From Stutzerimonas zhaodongensis (lineage in GTDB: Bacteria; Pseudomonadota; Gammaproteobacteria; Pseudomonadales; Pseudomonadaceae), in assembly GCF_003696365.1 (NCBI RefSeq), contig NZ_RFFM01000001.1:186001-250000 (forward strand): a DNA stretch of 64,000 nt, read 5' to 3'. This document shows, in pieces, positions 18,105 through 25,509 of this stretch. Made by a program: the position numbers and the translations under genes. The notes under the pieces were generated by a model. That model saw only the letters and a list, made by a program, of their open reading frames with translations, was not told where the DNA came from and did no database searches. Within the stretch, counting starts at the first letter, position 1. Each line of letters begins with the position of its first letter.

Positions 18105-19193
18105 CTAGAGCAGGCTCTCACGACCCCATTGTTCCAGCGCCTGAGGCAGCGGCAGCACTTCGCCAGGGCGACTCAGGGCGTAACCCGGCAGACGAGCTAT
18201 GCATGTCTGGAACTCCGGGTCCTGCAGCACTTTCAGTAGCGCACCCATCGCCGGAAGGTCGAGGCTGTCTTCACGGCATAGCAGGCAGTAGTGCTCGCGC
18301 GCCATAGGAATGAATTCCAGGCCGAACTGGCGCGCAGCTGCCTCGACTCCGAAGCCCACGTCGGCCATGCCGCTGGCAACGTACGCAGCCACCGCTGCAT
18401 GCGTGAATTCCTCGTTGTGAAAGCCGGTAATCTTCATGCTGTCCAGCTCATCACGGCGCAGCAGGTCTTCGAGCAGCATGCGTGTGCCGGATCCCTGCTC
18501 GCGATTGACGAAGCGCAGCTCGCTTCGTCTCAGATCGGCCAGCCCCTTCACACCGTGCGGATTTCCAGGAGCCAGCATCAGCCCCTGTGTGCGCACCACG
18601 AAGGTGATCGCGCGCTGGTCCGGACGCATCCATGGCTGAATGCGGCTCATGCTCAGTTCGCCGAGCGGCCCTGCCGGCACGTGCAGGCCGGCGACTTCAC
18701 AGTCGTGACGGTGCAGCGCAATGATCGCCTCGTTGCCGCCGCGAAACTGCACCTCCCACTGCCAACTCGGATCTCTCTCCAGCCACTGGCGCAAGGCTGC
18801 GACGGCGAAGCCATGGCTGGCATGGATGCGCAGGCCGGGATTGCTTGCCTGCAACACTCGGTTCAGTTCCAGCTCCAATTCGCTGGCCAGATTGTCCAGC
18901 TGTGGTGACAGCCGGGCGCGAATACGCTGATCGGCCCACAACAGTTTCTCTCCCAGCGGCGCCAGGCGCGCGCCCTTGCCTCGTTCCAGCTCGATCAGCG
19001 GGCTGCCGAAGAATGCCTGCCACTTGCCCAGCAGATTCCACGCGTGGCGGTAGGAATACCCCACGCGTGCGGCGGCTTCAGTCAACTTGCCGGTGTCGTG
19101 CACCGCCTGCAGCAATGCCAGTCCTTGAGGGTCCAGGCTGCTGCCGTCGCTCTGGTGAAACCTCCATCGCGGCTGGATCTCGATTCGAATCAT
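18105..19193 (-). CDS. ModE-like HTH regulator with periplasmic-binding-protein-like sensor domain
   Basis: A 362-residue regulator. Residues about 20-90 are a LysR/ModE-type winged helix (LTEAAARVGYSYRHAWNLLGKW, in which the helix-turn-helix and wing contact DNA). The C-terminal two thirds (from GLRIHASHGFAV) resemble a molybdate/substrate-binding-protein fold (PBP-like domain) rather than a ModE TOBE domain. Such fusions are regularly found beside molybdoenzyme genes. It is divergent from the fds formate dehydrogenase operon, so it likely controls that operon in response to molybdate, tungstate or formate; the ligand is not shown. Confidence 0.85.
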   Translation of the reverse strand: MIRIEIQPRWRFHQSDGSSLDPQGLALLQAVHDTGKLTEAAARVGYSYRHAWNLLGKWQAFFGSPLIELERGKGARLAPLGEKLLWADQRIRARLSPQLDNLASELELELNRVLQASNPGLRIHASHGFAVAALRQWLERDPSWQWEVQFRGGNEAIIALHRHDCEVAGLHVPAGPLGELSMSRIQPWMRPDQRAITFVVRTQGLMLAPGNPHGVKGLADLRRSELRFVNREQGSGTRMLLEDLLRRDELDSMKITGFHNEEFTHAAVAAYVASGMADVGFGVEAAARQFGLEFIPMAREHYCLLCREDSLDLPAMGALLKVLQDPEFQTCIARLPGYALSRPGEVLPLPQALEQWGRESLL

Positions 19194-19392
19194 ATGATCT
19201 AGGCTTCATATTTGTTGATGAATATGACCATGTTAACTTGCATTTACCGGCCTGTAGCGGCTGGATAATAAGAACTTCATTTCATATGTGGGTCGCTTTA
19301 TTGGCGACGCCAGAGATTAGCCCTCGGTAACCGTGACTGAGGCGCTTGTCTCCCGACAGTACCGGTCATAGCCGCCGGCTGGAGCTTCGAAC
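19194..19392. promoter_or_regulatory. divergent regulator/fds promoter with CATAT repeats
   Basis: An AT-rich spacer in an otherwise GC-rich neighbourhood. It holds a cluster of TCATAT/ATATGA half-sites: CATATG over the regulator start (19191-19196), an inverted pair TCATATT-N8-AATATGA (19206-19227) and TCATATG (19282-19288). ModE-type regulators bind AT-rich inverted TAT repeats, so these are the best operator candidates for the divergent regulator. Confidence 0.5.
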
Positions 19393-19887
19393 ATGGCCAT
19401 TCTTTCCCAGCGCTTCGCTCCCGAGCAGTGTCAGGCTGTCGCCCGCGAGGTGCTGGCCGCCCGCCGCGGCCAGCCTGGCGCCTTGCTGCCAATCCTTCAC
19501 GATATTCAGGATCGCCTTGGTGCGGTACCGCCCGACCTTTTGCCGATGATTGCCGAGGAGCTGTGCCTGTCGCGCGCCGAGGTGCATGGCGTGGTCAGTT
19601 TCTATCACGATTTTCGCGCCAGCCCACCGGGTCGGCATGTGCTCAAACTCTGCCAGGCAGAGGCCTGCCAGTCGATGGGCGTAAAAGCGCTGACTGCCGA
19701 GATGGAGCAAAAGCTGGGCCTGCCGCTTGGTGAGACCCTCGAGGATGGCAGTCTGAGCTTCGAGGCGGTGTATTGCCTGGGTAACTGCGCCTGCGCGCCG
19801 AACGCGATGCTCAATGGCGAGTTGCATGGCCGCGTCGATGCGCAGGAGCTGCTGGCGCTGCTGGCTGAGCAGGAGTCCCGCGCATGA
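19393..19887 (+). CDS. fdsG: NAD-dependent formate dehydrogenase gamma subunit
   Basis: A 164-residue NuoE-like thioredoxin-fold subunit. Four cysteines at 87, 92, 128 and 132 (CQAEACQ and CLGNCACAP) form the [2Fe-2S] site. In soluble FdsABG complexes it passes electrons between the molybdenum subunit and the diaphorase subunit. Ribosome binding site ctggagcttcgaac. It overlaps fdsB by four bases (ATGA), indicating translational coupling. First gene of the fds operon. Confidence 0.95.
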   Translation: MAILSQRFAPEQCQAVAREVLAARRGQPGALLPILHDIQDRLGAVPPDLLPMIAEELCLSRAEVHGVVSFYHDFRASPPGRHVLKLCQAEACQSMGVKALTAEMEQKLGLPLGETLEDGSLSFEAVYCLGNCACAPNAMLNGELHGRVDAQELLALLAEQESRA

Positions 19888-21446
19888 ATCAGCCCATCAC
19901 CGTTTATGTGCCGCGCGACGTCACAGCCCTAAGCCTTGGCGCCGACAAGGTGGCCAAGGCCCTCGTTATGGAGGCTGCGGCGCGCGGTATCGAACTGAAT
20001 CTGGTACGCAATGGTTCGCGCGGACTGTTCTGGCTCGAGCCGCTGGTGGAGGTGGCGACCAGCGCAGGGCGCGTCGCCTACGGTCCGGTCAAGGCCAGAG
20101 ATGTTGCCGGCCTGTTCGACGCCGATTTTCTTGAAGGCGGGGCGCATCCGCTGGGTCATGGGCTGACCGAGGAGATCGAGTACCTCAAGCGCCAGGAGCG
20201 TCTGACCTTTGCCCGAGCCGGAATTACCGATCCGCTGTCGCTGGACGACTACATCGCTCACGACGGTTATCGCGGTCTCAGGCGCGCCCTCGGCATGACT
20301 CCCGACGCCATCGTTGCCGAGGTCACCGAATCAGGCCTGCGCGGCCGTGGCGGTGCGGCCTTCCCCACGGGCATCAAGTGGCGCACCGTGCTCGGCTGCG
20401 AAGCCGCGCAGAAGTACATCGTCTGCAACGCCGATGAGGGCGACTCTGGCACCTTCTCCGATCGCATGGTGATGGAAGACGACCCCTTCGTTCTGATCGA
20501 AGGCATGACCATCGCCGGCTTGGCCGTGGGTGCCACCATGGGCTACATCTACCTGCGTTCGGAGTACCCGCACGCCGAGGCCACCCTGAATGCTGCCATC
20601 GCCCGCGCATACGCCGCCGGCTATCTGGGCGATGACCTGCTTGGTAGCGGCAAGCGTTTCCACCTGGAGCTTCGCCGCGGAGCAGGCGCCTATATCTGCG
20701 GCGAGGAAACAGCCCTGCTGGAGAGCGTCGAAGGCAAGCGCGGCACTGTGCGGCCGAAGCCACCGCTGCCGGCCATCGAGGGTCTGTTCGGCATGCCGAC
20801 GGTGATCAACAACGTGATTTCGCTCGCCTCGGTGCCCATCATCCTCGACAAGGGTGGCGCCTATTACCGTGACTTCGGCATGGGTCGATCGCTCGGCACC
20901 TTACCCATTCAGCTGACCGGCAACATTGCTCGCGGCGGCCTGATCGAGAGGGCCTTTGGCATCACTCTGCGCGAGCTGCTCTACGAATACGGCGGCGGAT
21001 CGGCCAGTGGCCGGCCGATCCGCGCGGTACAGGTCGGTGGCCCACTTGGCGCTTATCTGCCGGAATCTCAGTTCGACACCCCTCTGGATTACGAAGCCTT
21101 CGCAGCACTTGGAGCGGTGCTTGGCCACGGCGGCATCGTGGTGTTCGACGACACCGTGGACATGGCCGACATGGCGCGTTACGCCATGGAATTCTGCGCG
21201 GTGGAGTCCTGCGGCAAGTGCACGCCCTGCCGGATCGGTTCCACCCGGGGCGAAGAGTTGCTCGAGCAAATCATCGTTGCTCGCTCGGAAGGTCCGCAGC
21301 CGGGCCGTATCGAGCTGCTCAAAAGCCTGTGCGACACCATGCTCGGCGCTTCGCTCTGCGCCCTCGGCGGGATGACTCCCTACCCTGTGATGAGTGCACT
21401 CAATCATTTTCCCGAGGATTTCGGCGACACCGCCGAAGCCCGCTGA
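19884..21446 (+). CDS. fdsB: NAD-dependent formate dehydrogenase beta (diaphorase) subunit
   Basis: A 520-residue NuoF-like subunit. An N-terminal thioredoxin-like domain (about 1-110) is followed by the FMN/NADH-binding domain with GRGGAAFPTGIKW (from about 153) and NADEGDSGTF, a SLBB region, and a [4Fe-4S] domain with SCGKCTPCRIG (about 441-451). It takes electrons from the iron-sulfur chain and reduces NAD+ to NADH in the cytoplasm. It sits between fdsG and fdsA with an overlap on one side and 15 bases on the other. Confidence 0.96.
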   Translation: MNQPITVYVPRDVTALSLGADKVAKALVMEAAARGIELNLVRNGSRGLFWLEPLVEVATSAGRVAYGPVKARDVAGLFDADFLEGGAHPLGHGLTEEIEYLKRQERLTFARAGITDPLSLDDYIAHDGYRGLRRALGMTPDAIVAEVTESGLRGRGGAAFPTGIKWRTVLGCEAAQKYIVCNADEGDSGTFSDRMVMEDDPFVLIEGMTIAGLAVGATMGYIYLRSEYPHAEATLNAAIARAYAAGYLGDDLLGSGKRFHLELRRGAGAYICGEETALLESVEGKRGTVRPKPPLPAIEGLFGMPTVINNVISLASVPIILDKGGAYYRDFGMGRSLGTLPIQLTGNIARGGLIERAFGITLRELLYEYGGGSASGRPIRAVQVGGPLGAYLPESQFDTPLDYEAFAALGAVLGHGGIVVFDDTVDMADMARYAMEFCAVESCGKCTPCRIGSTRGEELLEQIIVARSEGPQPGRIELLKSLCDTMLGASLCALGGMTPYPVMSALNHFPEDFGDTAEAR

Positions 21447-21461
21447 TCCGGAGGCACAAAT

Positions 21462-24296
21462 ATGGCCCTGTATCGTGAACTCGACTATGGCACCCCGGCC
21501 CGCACCGGCGCTCCGGTAACGGTGGAAATCGACGGCACGGCAATCAGCGTGCCCGCGGGCACCTCGGTGATGCGCGCCGCTCAGGAAGCCGGAATTTCGG
21601 TGCCCAAGCTGTGCGCCAGCGACAGCCTTGAGCCGTTCGGCTCTTGCCGGCTGTGTACGGTGGAGATCGAAGGCCGGCGCGGCTTTCCGGCTTCCTGTAC
21701 TACGCCTGTCGAGCCAGGCATGAAGGTACGCACCCAGAGCCCCAAGCTCGCAGAACTGCGCCGTGGCACCATGGAGCTGTACATCTCGGACCACCCGTTG
21801 GACTGTCTGACCTGCTCGGCGAATGGCAACTGCGAACTGCAGGACATGGCCGGCGTGGTTGGCCTGCGCGAAGTGCGTTACGACCCGGTGCAAACCCACC
21901 TTGCCGAAGCCAAGGACGAGTCCAATCCCTATTTCAGCTATGACCCAGCCAAGTGCATCGTCTGCAACCGTTGTGTGCGGGCTTGCGAAGAAGTGCAGGG
22001 CACCTTTGCGCTGACCATCGACGGGCGCGGCTTCGATTCGCGTATCGCCGCCGGCCAGGCCGAGGATTTTCTCGATTCCGAGTGCGTTTCCTGCGGCGCC
22101 TGTGTGCAGGCCTGCCCGACTGCGACGCTGATGGAAAAGACGGTGATCGAGATGGGTCAGGCCGAGCGCAGCGTTACCACTACCTGCGCCTACTGCGGCG
22201 TAGGCTGCTCGTTCAAGGCCGAGGTCAAGGGCAACGAAGTAGTGCGCATGGTGCCGAACAAGGATGGCCACGCCAACCATGGCCACTCCTGCGTGAAGGG
22301 CCGCTTCGCCTGGGGTTATGCCACCCACCCCGACCGTATCAAGACGCCGATGATCCGCGACAGTATCAACGAGCCCTGGCGTCCGGTGAGCTGGGACGAG
22401 GCGATTGGCTACGCCGCCCGGCGCTTCAAGGAAATCCAGGCGCAGTACGGCCAGAATTCGGTGGGCGGGCTGACGTCCTCGCGTTGCACCAATGAGGAAA
22501 CCTATCTGGTTCAGAAGTTGGTACGCGCCGCCTTCGGCAACAACAACGTCGACACCTGTGCGAGGGTTTGCCATTCGCCCACCGGCTACGGCCTGAAGGT
22601 TACGCTTGGCGAATCCGCCGGTACTCAGGACTTCGACTCGGTGTTGTCGGCCGACGTGGTGCTGGTGATCGGCGCCAACCCCACCGACGGGCACCCCGTC
22701 TTCGGTTCACAACTCAAGCGTCGGCTGCGCGAGGGCGCCCGGCTGATCGTTGCCGACCCACGCGGCATAGATCTGGTACGCGGTCCGCACGTCAAGGCCG
22801 ACCACCATCTGCAACTGCGCCCTGGCAGCAATGTCGCCCTGCTCAATAGCCTGGCGCACGTGATCGTCACGGAGAACCTGGTGGACGAGGCCTTTGTCGC
22901 CGAGCGCTGCGAAGCCGAGGCATTCGAACAGTGGCGCGCATTTGTCGGTGAGCAGCGCAACAGCCCCGAAACCATGCAGGAGCTGACCGGCGTGCCGGCC
23001 GCCACAGTGCGCGCCGCGGCGCGTCTGTACGCCACCGGCGGCAATGCCGCTATCTACTACGGCCTCGGTGTCACCGAGCACAGCCAGGGTTCGTCCACCG
23101 TCATGGCAATCGCCAACCTGGCCATGGCCACCGGCAATATCGGCAGACCGGGCGTGGGCGTGAACCCGTTGCGCGGGCAGAACAACGTGCAAGGTTCCTG
23201 TGACATGGGCTCTTTTCCGCACGAGCTGCCGGGTTATCGTCACGTTTCCGATCCGGTGGCGCGGCCACTGTTCGAAGACGCCTGGGGCGTCAAGCTGCTC
23301 GACGAGCCGGGCTTGCGCATCCCGAACATGCTGGCGGCGGCGCACGCCGGGACTTTCAAAGGGCTGTATATCCAGGGCGAGGACCCGGCGCAGTCGGATC
23401 CCGATACCCAGCACGTCACCGATGCGCTCAAGGCCATGGAATGTGTTGTGGTGCAGGACCTGTTCCTCAACGAAACCGCCAAGTTTGCCCACGTGTTCCT
23501 GCCTGGCGCCTCCTTCCTTGAGAAGAACGGCACCTTCACCAACGCCGAGCGGCGCATTTCGCCGGTGCGCAAAGTGATGCCGGCGCTGGCTGGCAAGGAA
23601 GACTGGGAAGTGACGGTGGCGCTGTCCAACGCCCTCGGCTATCCAATGAATTACACCCATCCGTCGCAGATCATGGACGAGATCGCCAGCCTGACCCCGA
23701 CATTCACCGGCGTCAGCTACGCCAAGCTCGATCGCATGGGCAGCATTCAGTGGCCATGCAACGACGAGGCGCCGGAAGGCACGCCGATCATGCATGAGGA
23801 CGCATTCGTGCGCGGCAAGGGGCGCTTCGTGATCACCGAGTTCATCGCCACTGATGAGCGCACCTCGCGCAAGCGGCCGCTGGTGCTGACCACCGGGCGT
23901 ATCCTTTCGCAGTACAACGTCGGGGCGCAGACACGCCGTACCGCCAACAAGGCCTGGCACGCCGAGGACATCCTTGAGCTGCACCCGGTTGATGCCGAAG
24001 ACCGTGGCATCAACGACGGTGACTGGGTCGGTATCAACAGCCGCGCGGGTGAGACGGTGATGCGCGCAAAGGTCACCCAACGCATGCAGCCCGGCGTGGT
24101 GTACACCACCTTCCACCATCCCGAGTCCGGTGCCAACGTGATCACCACGGACAACTCGGACTGGGCTACCAATTGCCCCGAATATAAGGTCACCGCGGTG
24201 CAGGTGCGCAAGGTGGAGGTCCCCTCGAAGTGGCAGCAGGAGTTCGACGCTTTCACCCGCGAGCAGGTGAACCTGCTGCCCGTGGTGCAGCTGTGA
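21462..24296 (+). CDS. fdsA: NAD-dependent formate dehydrogenase alpha (molybdenum/tungsten) subunit
   Basis: A 944-residue catalytic subunit with ribosome binding site ccggaggcacaaat. In order: an N-terminal [2Fe-2S] ferredoxin domain (GSCRLCTVEIEG), a NuoG-like Cys/His cluster (CLTCSANGNCELQ), two [4Fe-4S] motifs (CIVCNRCVRACEE, CVSCGACVQACP), the [4Fe-4S] of the molybdopterin part (CAYCGVGC) and the bis-MGD domains. The metal-ligand residue is Cys370 followed by His371 in ARVCHSPTGYG; no selenocysteine is needed. It oxidises formate to CO2 and can in related enzymes run in reverse. Maturation should require FdhD, encoded at the end of this operon. Confidence 0.97.
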   Translation: MALYRELDYGTPARTGAPVTVEIDGTAISVPAGTSVMRAAQEAGISVPKLCASDSLEPFGSCRLCTVEIEGRRGFPASCTTPVEPGMKVRTQSPKLAELRRGTMELYISDHPLDCLTCSANGNCELQDMAGVVGLREVRYDPVQTHLAEAKDESNPYFSYDPAKCIVCNRCVRACEEVQGTFALTIDGRGFDSRIAAGQAEDFLDSECVSCGACVQACPTATLMEKTVIEMGQAERSVTTTCAYCGVGCSFKAEVKGNEVVRMVPNKDGHANHGHSCVKGRFAWGYATHPDRIKTPMIRDSINEPWRPVSWDEAIGYAARRFKEIQAQYGQNSVGGLTSSRCTNEETYLVQKLVRAAFGNNNVDTCARVCHSPTGYGLKVTLGESAGTQDFDSVLSADVVLVIGANPTDGHPVFGSQLKRRLREGARLIVADPRGIDLVRGPHVKADHHLQLRPGSNVALLNSLAHVIVTENLVDEAFVAERCEAEAFEQWRAFVGEQRNSPETMQELTGVPAATVRAAARLYATGGNAAIYYGLGVTEHSQGSSTVMAIANLAMATGNIGRPGVGVNPLRGQNNVQGSCDMGSFPHELPGYRHVSDPVARPLFEDAWGVKLLDEPGLRIPNMLAAAHAGTFKGLYIQGEDPAQSDPDTQHVTDALKAMECVVVQDLFLNETAKFAHVFLPGASFLEKNGTFTNAERRISPVRKVMPALAGKEDWEVTVALSNALGYPMNYTHPSQIMDEIASLTPTFTGVSYAKLDRMGSIQWPCNDEAPEGTPIMHEDAFVRGKGRFVITEFIATDERTSRKRPLVLTTGRILSQYNVGAQTRRTANKAWHAEDILELHPVDAEDRGINDGDWVGINSRAGETVMRAKVTQRMQPGVVYTTFHHPESGANVITTDNSDWATNCPEYKVTAVQVRKVEVPSKWQQEFDAFTREQVNLLPVVQL

Positions 24297-24396: not shown

Positions 24397-24642
24397 ATGG
24401 GCATGAATGCCACGCAATTGATCAGGATGGCCAATCAGATTGGCGCCTTTTTCGCCTCCCAGCCCGATGCCGAGCAGGCTCGCACGGACTTCGCGCTGCA
24501 TCTCAAGCGCCAATGGGACCCGCAGATGCGCACGGCACTATTCGCTCATCTGGATGCCACTGCAGGCGAAGGGTTGAACCCGTTCGTGCTGCAGGCTCTG
24601 GGCGGGATACGCGAGCAGATAGAACCGCAGGTACACGCCTGA
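24397..24642 (+). CDS. fdsD: formate dehydrogenase delta subunit
   Basis: An 81-residue FdsD-family protein (MGMNATQLIRMANQIGAFF..., with RQWDPQMRTALFAHL in the middle), preceded by cggagcacgttc. FdsD is part of soluble NAD-dependent formate dehydrogenases, where it aids assembly or stability of the complex; it carries no cofactor motif. Here it precedes fdhD, the reverse of the fdsC-fdsD order seen in some other operons. Confidence 0.93.
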   Translation: MGMNATQLIRMANQIGAFFASQPDAEQARTDFALHLKRQWDPQMRTALFAHLDATAGEGLNPFVLQALGGIREQIEPQVHA

Positions 24643-24681: not shown

Positions 24682-25509
24682 ATGCCTCGTCCTGCGCCCC
24701 TTAGTACCACCATGTCCGACGGCAATTCAGCGCCGGACGCTTATACCTATGCCGAGCTGGATGACGCGGCAGGTTCGGGTAGCGCTGTACTGGCCGAAGA
24801 ATGCGCGCTGGCCATCGCGTATAACGGCATCAGCCATGCGGTGATGATGGTCTCGCCCAGTGCGCTGGAAGACTTCGTGGTTGGCTTCAGCCTGAGCGGC
24901 GAGGTGGTCGGCGGCATCGACGACATACACGACATCCAGCTCAATCGTCGCGGTGACGCATTCAGCGCCGAAGTGCAGATCGGCAACAGGGCGTTCTGGG
25001 CGCTCAAGGAGCAGCGGCGCAATCTGGCCGGCACCAGCGGCTGCGGGCTTTGCGGCGTGGAGGCGATCGAACAGGCGCTGCCGCAATTGACCGCTCTGGC
25101 GCCCAGCCCGTTGCCCCCGGCCGCGCATCTGCACGATTTGCGCGCGCGCATCAACGATGTGCAGCGCCTGGCACGGCAAAGCGGTGCTCTGCACGCCGCG
25201 CTGTTTGTCGACGAGCAGGGCGAGATCGTGCTGTGCCGTGAAGACATTGGCCGCCACAACGCGCTGGACAAGCTGATTGGCGCGCTGAGACGGGAGGGCC
25301 GTGACGGCCGTCATGGCTTCGCCGTGGTCACCAGCCGATGCAGTCTCGAGTTGATTCACAAGGCCGTGCGTGCGGGGCTTTCGACCCTGGTCAGCCTCTC
25401 GGCGCCGACCGACCTTTGCGTGCGCTGGGCGCGCCAGCACCACCTCAATCTGATCCACCTGCCGCATCACAACGCGCCGCGGGTCTATAGCCCCGGAGCT
25501 GGCGCGTAA
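24682..25509 (+). CDS. fdhD: formate dehydrogenase accessory sulfurtransferase FdhD
   Basis: A 275-residue FdhD/FdsC. The essential pair Cys121/Cys124 is in TSGCGLCGVEAI, and the conserved CREDIGRHNALDKLIG region follows at about residue 183. FdhD transfers sulfur from IscS-type desulfurase to the bis-MGD cofactor, making formate dehydrogenase active. Start at 24682 after aaggaacaccctc; an internal ATG at 24712 is possible. Last gene of the fds operon, convergent with the kinase gene that follows. Confidence 0.95.
   Translation: MPRPAPLSTTMSDGNSAPDAYTYAELDDAAGSGSAVLAEECALAIAYNGISHAVMMVSPSALEDFVVGFSLSGEVVGGIDDIHDIQLNRRGDAFSAEVQIGNRAFWALKEQRRNLAGTSGCGLCGVEAIEQALPQLTALAPSPLPPAAHLHDLRARINDVQRLARQSGALHAALFVDEQGEIVLCREDIGRHNALDKLIGALRREGRDGRHGFAVVTSRCSLELIHKAVRAGLSTLVSLSAPTDLCVRWARQHHLNLIHLPHHNAPRVYSPGAGA

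Follow-up and report, generated by a model that had tools for sequence, protein, structure and literature searches.

Two predicted operators of a divergent, LysR-like FdsR-type regulator enclose the putative fds promoter of Stutzerimonas zhaodongensis

Analysis of a 64,000-nucleotide stretch of DNA (the window; genome G000, 4.67 Mb) showed that the region between fdsG and a divergently encoded regulator gene carries two conserved inverted repeats, O1 and O2. On balance, these are probably two operators of an FdsR-type, LysR-like regulator that would activate fds, repress its own gene, repress fds from O2 and respond to formate (Table 1). The parts of this reading differed in strength. Judged from the sequence, binding of the regulator to O1 and O2 is very likely, repression of its own gene is likely and activation of fds from O1 is only slightly less so, while a role of O2 as a repression or loop site is possible and more tentative. 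In the proposed mechanism, a regulator dimer on O1 (centred at about -44.5 of fds) would touch RNA polymerase and turn on fds from an extended -10 promoter without a good -35, and the same dimer would cover the regulator start codon and limit its own synthesis. O2, spanning roughly +23 to +42 relative to the predicted fds start, would join O1 in keeping the promoter silent, possibly through looping of the DNA, until a signal, most likely formate, binds the PBP domain.

Table 1. Genes and observed or predicted elements of the fds locus (positions of the window)
Feature	Position	Strand	Remarks
Regulator gene (362 aa)	18105..19193	-	LysR/ModE-like winged HTH, linker helix, PBP_like domain; most likely FdsR-type
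Operator O1 (predicted), ATATGAT-N6-TTCATAT	19192..19211 (arms 19192-19198 and 19205-19211)		overlaps regulator start codon
AATATGA (unit 3), right arm in the earlier note	19221..19227		present in the window, not conserved
Candidate -10 TAACAT for the regulator gene (tentative)	19230..19235	-	overlaps fds -10
Extended -10 TGTTAACTT (TGnTAnnnT), predicted fds promoter	19231..19239	+
Operator O2 (predicted), ATAAGAA-N6-TTCATAT	19268..19287 (arms 19268-19274 and 19281-19287)
fdsG	19393..19887	+	first operon gene; NF004638 above cut-off
fdsB	19884..21446	+	PF01512, PF10589
fdsA	21462..24296	+	formate dehydrogenase alpha subunit; TIGR01591 above cut-off
Probable fdsD (81 aa)	24397..24642	+	open reading frame
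fdhD/fdsC	24682..25509	+	sulfurtransferase; PF02634, TIGR00129 above cut-off

The intergenic island lies between the minus-strand start codon of the regulator (ATG at 19193) and fdsG (19393). The GC content was 0.39-0.42 in 100-base windows from 19150 to 19299 compared to mostly 0.6-0.7 around it, which bears out the AT-rich island described in an earlier note on this DNA. The four CATAT units of that note were all present: TCATATG at 19190-19196 (unit 1), whose CAT at 19191-19193, read on the minus strand, gives the ATG of the regulator, TCATATT at 19206-19212 (unit 2), AATATGA eight bases further on (unit 3) and TCATATG at 19282-19288 (unit 4). The cluster had been placed at 19191-19288, a start that is one base late. 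The hexamer TCATAT, counted on either strand, was found in five copies in 19190-19289 compared to a mean of 0.31 in local dinucleotide shuffles, and none of 2000 shuffles reached five copies. Two of the five copies overlap (TCATATGA), so they mark four places. Five of the nine copies in the window fell within this segment, while over the 64 kb as a whole the hexamer was not enriched (11 copies expected compared to the 9 present). The CATAT units are genuine and much denser here than chance predicts. The pair TCATATT-N8-AATATGA is by itself unremarkable, as 68 of 1000 local shuffles reached a single perfect 7-bp inverted pair with a spacing of 3-12. The operon downstream has the gene order G-B-A-D-C, with probable fdsD (a name that we take from its position and sequence) before fdhD/fdsC, compared to the fdsGBACD named for C. 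necator.

Alignment of the close orthologous promoters (24 loci including the window, 21 distinct promoter sequences; closest named orthologues in Pseudomonas and Stutzerimonas) showed both O1 and O2, each scoring at least 9/10, in 24/24 loci, and fdsG adjoined the regulator in all of them. The earlier note had proposed conservation across fds operons as a check, and the sites were indeed kept in fds promoters beside the divergent regulator. Among the 21 distinct promoters, the invariant block at O1 was CATATG-N8-TTCATATTTG, in which the first CAT is the start codon, and the invariant block at O2 was ATAAGAACT-N4-TTCATAT; read as dyads, the two share a 7-6-7 layout. Invariant positions made up 10 of the 12 non-coding arm positions of O1 and 14/14 of O2, or 24/26 in total compared to 19/156 in the remaining non-coding spacer; the p-value of 4e-16 for this difference is descriptive since the arms were picked after viewing the alignment. 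The conserved arms face the opposite way from the pairing that the earlier note had drawn and form ATATG-N10-CATAT, so that unit 1 pairs with unit 2, and unit 4 pairs with a cryptic left arm, ATAAGAA, which had not been listed. One of the sites lies over the regulator start codon, as autoregulation needs, and this agrees with the autoregulation that had been suggested. By eye, TAnCAT, the candidate -10 of the regulator, was found in 20/21 distinct promoters and was not kept in Marinobacter. An extra stretch in the fds leader between O2 and fdsG, of about 140 bp in L002, L003 and L037 and about 48 bp in L006, leaves O1, the promoter and O2 untouched.

The core dyad was also found among distant relatives. 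Relatives of the regulator are encoded at 90 loci; grouping by shared 14-mers left 54 non-redundant ones, among which the whole close group counts once. ATATG-N10-CATAT (at least 9/10) occurred 58 times in 38 of the 54 loci compared to 1.6 +/- 1.3 in 20 shuffles, with the other spacings from 0 to 16 as a further control. In 17/54 loci no O1-like dyad (8/10) lay close to the start codon; a second dyad within 40-130 bp was present in 33 of the 37 loci with O1 at a score of at least 8/10 and in 21/37 at 9/10 or more. Inspection by eye showed that O1 is a perfect palindrome in Halomonas (L048-L050), that in Marinobacter O2 seems to run into the region of the fdsG start and that L127-L129 carry ATATG-N11-CCTAT instead. 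Two plasmid loci added later had the dyad in 2/2. Direct CATAT-N11-CATAT repeats were apparently enriched (69 windows, both strands counted) and were set aside because a one-base shift of CATAT gives ATATG with four of five letters unchanged, which makes them largely the same sites as the dyad. The arrangement in the earlier note, in which a dimer would occupy TCATATT-N8-AATATGA and the two TCATATG units would serve as additional half-sites, is a most improbable one: the pair is perfect in the window, but its right arm was exact in 1/24 close loci (the window itself) and invariant at 0/7 positions among the 21 distinct promoters, and the everted form CATAT-N10-ATATG was found in 3 windows compared to the 58 occurrences of the dyad in the 54 loci. 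In the 1.9-Mb genome G732 the regulator gene is present three times, at L111, at L134 and at another place (contigs C20 and C32); one copy adjoins fds and another an aldehyde dehydrogenase gene.

The distance between O1 and the putative -10 element was fixed. Of 76 loci that have an O1-like site scoring 7/10 or more, 52 carry the extended -10 motif TGnTAnnnT beginning exactly 19 bp after O1; the close group contributes 24 of these, and every other distance was seen at most once. Among non-redundant loci, TAnnnT was found at 22 bp after O1 in 25/37, with the next best distance in 3. C[AC]TAT-N22-TAnnnT, a pattern defined post hoc from looking at the locus sequences, was present in 28/54 compared to a mean of 3.1 over all distances, and the spacing was missing in the other 26/54. 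The runner-up distance for this pattern was 38 bp (11 loci), which would arise if the distance to this element were taken from the opposite arm; on the other strand, the best half-site-to-minus-10 spacing was 13 bp in 7/54 loci, with nothing at 22 bp. L115 and L134, in which O1 lies away from the start codon, retained the spacing to the -10, one of the two plasmid loci had it exactly, and L065 had TGnTAnnnT at 16 bp instead of 19 bp. No preferred distance was found for TTG as a -35. Counting from the -10 element, fds transcription is predicted to start near 19246, which would place O1 at about -54 to -35 and the centre of O2 near +32, with the predicted promoter between the two. Other promoter candidates were rejected. 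TATAAG near 19265 was not kept as an fds -10 outside the Pseudomonas-type group by eye, hence the invariant TGnTAnnnT was preferred. A sigma-54 promoter has the order GG-N10-GC, which was absent by eye from the CATGnTAnnTTGC block in the close alignment. The match of a promoter scan lay on the minus strand only, inside O1 over the start codon, and was not usable.

The position of O2 downstream of the predicted start, together with an O1 that abuts the -35 region, also fits a simple repressor in which both sites block RNA polymerase until a ligand releases the protein, with no activation from O1. We consider this unlikely, as an O1-to-minus-10 spacing exact to 1 bp across distant genera and a poor -35 are what one expects of an activator, and the title of the R. 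eutropha fdsR paper (Oh and Bowien 1999) speaks of "dual control". For the preferred reading of activation from O1 with repression from O2, the O1-O2 distances were 65-120 bp and clearly favoured a single helical phase when all sites were counted (R 0.60, n=33); with the 21 strongest sites the phasing was weak (R 0.45, null probability 0.08), so looping remains a suggestion. The cooperative binding that the earlier note had put forward is thus pointed to by the phased distances, weakly.

The occurrence of the dyad followed the regulator. Within the genus, the regulator and fdsG were found in the same 10 of 56 genomes, while in a phylum sample of 398 genomes an fdsG relative was found in 84 (E up to 1e-30) and a regulator relative in 26 (E up to 1e-40). 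The 29 distant fdsG loci with the best scores outside the window, a set not drawn at random, had a dyad scoring 9/10 or more in 0/25 promoters without the regulator and in 4/4 with it, those four being from genomes already in the regulator set. Taken with the 24/24 close loci, this tracking supports the earlier proposal that the sites go with the divergent regulator. In the window's genome, O1 was the only exact match to WTATG-N10-CATAT, and O1 and O2 were the only places within one mismatch of ATATGAA-N6-TTCATAT, so the protein probably acts locally, on a single target region. A further 39 places were found, two of them at two mismatches and 37 at three, compared to 7 for the reversed pattern. 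Of the two closer ones, L099 lies among polysaccharide-like genes by eye, and L098 (G000:C1:445700-445719) is the palindrome ATATCAAAAAGTTTTGATAT. No regulator relative was found in viral contigs by the peptide patterns used.

Domain searches with the regulator showed PF00126 HTH_1 (LysR) at the N-terminus with 28.2 bits (cut-off 26.6) and PF12727 PBP_like as sensor with 192.5 bits. LysR_substrate PF03466 (24.8 bits, cut-off 28) was below cut-off and ModE TIGR00637 (37.2 bits, cut-off 98.5) far below; TOBE and HTH_17 were absent among the Pfam matches with E up to 0.001. The structure model (pLDDT 93.4) had a linker helix at 79-114, and the best Foldseek matches were full-length LysR-type regulators (8sbf, E 2e-16 over 321 columns). 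The whole-chain superposition on LysR-type regulators was poor (TM 0.41), so the domains are either arranged differently or match domain by domain. The sensor domain matched phosphate-binding proteins, ModA and LysR effector domains about equally (Z 15.4-17.5). The earlier note had described a fusion of a ModE HTH with a PBP domain; the sensor part of that description holds and the ModE part is half right, and with HTH_1 above and ModE below cut-off and a LysR-like fold, LysR-like regulator with a PBP_like sensor is the better description. The protein has HTH_1, a long linker helix, a PBP-fold effector domain, a divergent gene and likely autoregulation in common with LysR-type regulators, but PF12727 takes the place of their LysR_substrate domain. 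The LysR-type operator is a T-N11-A box upstream near -65; in contrast, O1 is an even-centred 20-bp dyad at about -44.5 (T19195-N12-A19208 and hence no T-N11-A), and a second dyad lies past the predicted start.

The winged HTH is also related in sequence to that of ModE (TIGR00637, below cut-off; PDB 2ijl), from which the regulator differs by having no TOBE sensor. The Mo-box consensus, given as ATCGNTATATA-N6-TATATANCGAT in a passage of PMC545781, is likewise a dyad with N6 between its arms, while the site described here is ATATGnn-N6-nnCATAT. A canonical ModE, or a general DNA-bending factor, acting on the island would draw on its AT-rich stretch and on the weak ModE-type HTH similarity of the local regulator. 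This is very improbable, as no Mo-box with up to three mismatches was found at the fds promoter and the dyad tracks the regulator and not fds. A ModE-like gene elsewhere in the genome (94.2 bits, 4 bits below the cut-off of 98.5) has the genome's only perfect Mo-box next to it, thus the fds sites are not Mo-boxes. That Mo-box, at G000:C12:287179-287202 (L141), lies about 110 bp before the matched ModE-like stretch at 287313 (L139). The TaoR family (Rajeev 2019, as cited in PMC11980592), whose regulators are tied to tungsten enzymes, resembles the window regulator in combining an HTH with a PBP-like sensor, here PF12727; TaoR-like proteins are described in that passage with helix-turn-helix-17 while the window regulator has HTH_1.

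At L122 and L126, FdsG is very close to PDB 6vw7, which we take to be from C. necator, and a family member with both dyads is divergent from fdsG (dyad scores 10 and 8 of 10 in L122, 9 and 9 of 10 in L126). The regulators of L122 and L126 are 46% and 42% identical to the window regulator. The window regulator is therefore most likely an FdsR, a likeness drawn through these two loci. FdsR of Ralstonia eutropha/Cupriavidus necator is described as an fds regulator with a formate-inducible promoter, dual control and autorepression: Oh and Bowien (1999) name dual control of fds by fdsR in their title, a 2018 paper (PMC6182179) cites the R. eutropha fdsR paper among natural autorepressors, and passages of PMC7057948 describe a formate-inducible FdsR/promoter pair in C. 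necator (inducer formate, Km 130 uM) and, in one set-up tested, no significant induction of the formate promoter. Among the open papers listed in literature searches, none was recognised as mapping the O1 and O2 operators. The operator definition, the fixed promoter geometry and the spread beyond fds are additions made here, and the 1999 paper may already have mapped the sites.

A tree of 76 of the 90 regulator relatives separated a clade of 52 from a clade of 24 (95/88). Partner genes, mostly labelled from frames and tblastn with eight partners checked, were fds (44), aldehyde dehydrogenase (5), metal-free NAD formate dehydrogenase (1), MFS transporter (1) and a porin on a long branch (1) in the former, and tungstate-transport-like genes (12), porins (8) and others (4) in the latter. 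The partner of L063 was an NAD-dependent, metal-free formate dehydrogenase above cut-off, the partners of L111 and L120 were aldehyde dehydrogenases, and those of L072 and L080 were Porin_O_P and Alginate_exp. The TupA-like partner of L066, the TupB-like partner of L071 and the MFS partner of L116 were below their named cut-offs; in G594 the MFS gene lies between the regulator and fdsG, hence it does not count as a separate partner. One plasmid-borne relative is encoded facing FdhF/YdeP and fdhD. Members of the sister clade adjoin tungstate-transport-like genes or porins (L066, L068, L069, L071-L074, L076, L077, L080, L082); the divergent loci among them (L071, L072, L073, L076, L077, L080, L082) have two dyads of at least 8/10, and the tup-type operon loci (L066, L068, L069, L074) do not. 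The likely anion-binding loop residues S126, H127, R231, T237, R238 and H265, placed in the cleft from secondary structure, were conserved in both clades. Clade-specific residues were three weak ones (positions 150, 276 and 283) with no obvious switch.

Formate is, on this evidence, the probable ligand, because the partners include fds, the metal-free formate dehydrogenase of L063 and FdhF/YdeP with fdhD, and because C. necator FdsR responds to formate in the passages of PMC7057948. An alternative with the same operators and regulator has molybdate or tungstate as the signal: the PBP domain would report metal supply, so that the Mo formate dehydrogenase is on with metal and metal-free isoenzymes and importers are steered otherwise. 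An oxyanion is favoured by the likely pocket residues that the fds-linked clade shares with the tup/porin-linked one, by the PBP_like sensor, whose closest folds include phosphate- and molybdate-binding proteins tied with LysR effector domains, and by TaoR, an HTH and PBP-like regulator that controls a tungstoenzyme according to PMC11980592. Set against it are the FdsR response to formate, the separate ModE-like gene with its perfect Mo-box, and the split of the fds-linked clade, which includes a metal-free formate dehydrogenase partner, from the tup/porin clade. Metal sensing is possible in our judgement and considerably less probable than not, and the formate reading was retained.

The operator definition ATATG-N10-CATAT replaces a guessed site and predicts controlled promoters and transcript starts at fds, at metal-free formate dehydrogenase genes and at porin or tungstate-transport-like genes. 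Such a regulator-operator pair is needed by formate biosensors and formate-fed strains. Formate-linked and tungstate-linked members have the same likely pocket residues, which raises the question of whether the same anion is sensed. It is conceivable, though rather unlikely, that these proteins make up a LysR-fold family with an unusual operator pair enclosing the promoter, in which a dyad locked to the -10 (at about -44.5) and a phased downstream dyad would combine activation by contact with repression by a loop. Sensor residues would then be common to formate-oxidation and tungstate-uptake circuits, and formate use may be tied to metal supply through a single anion signal.
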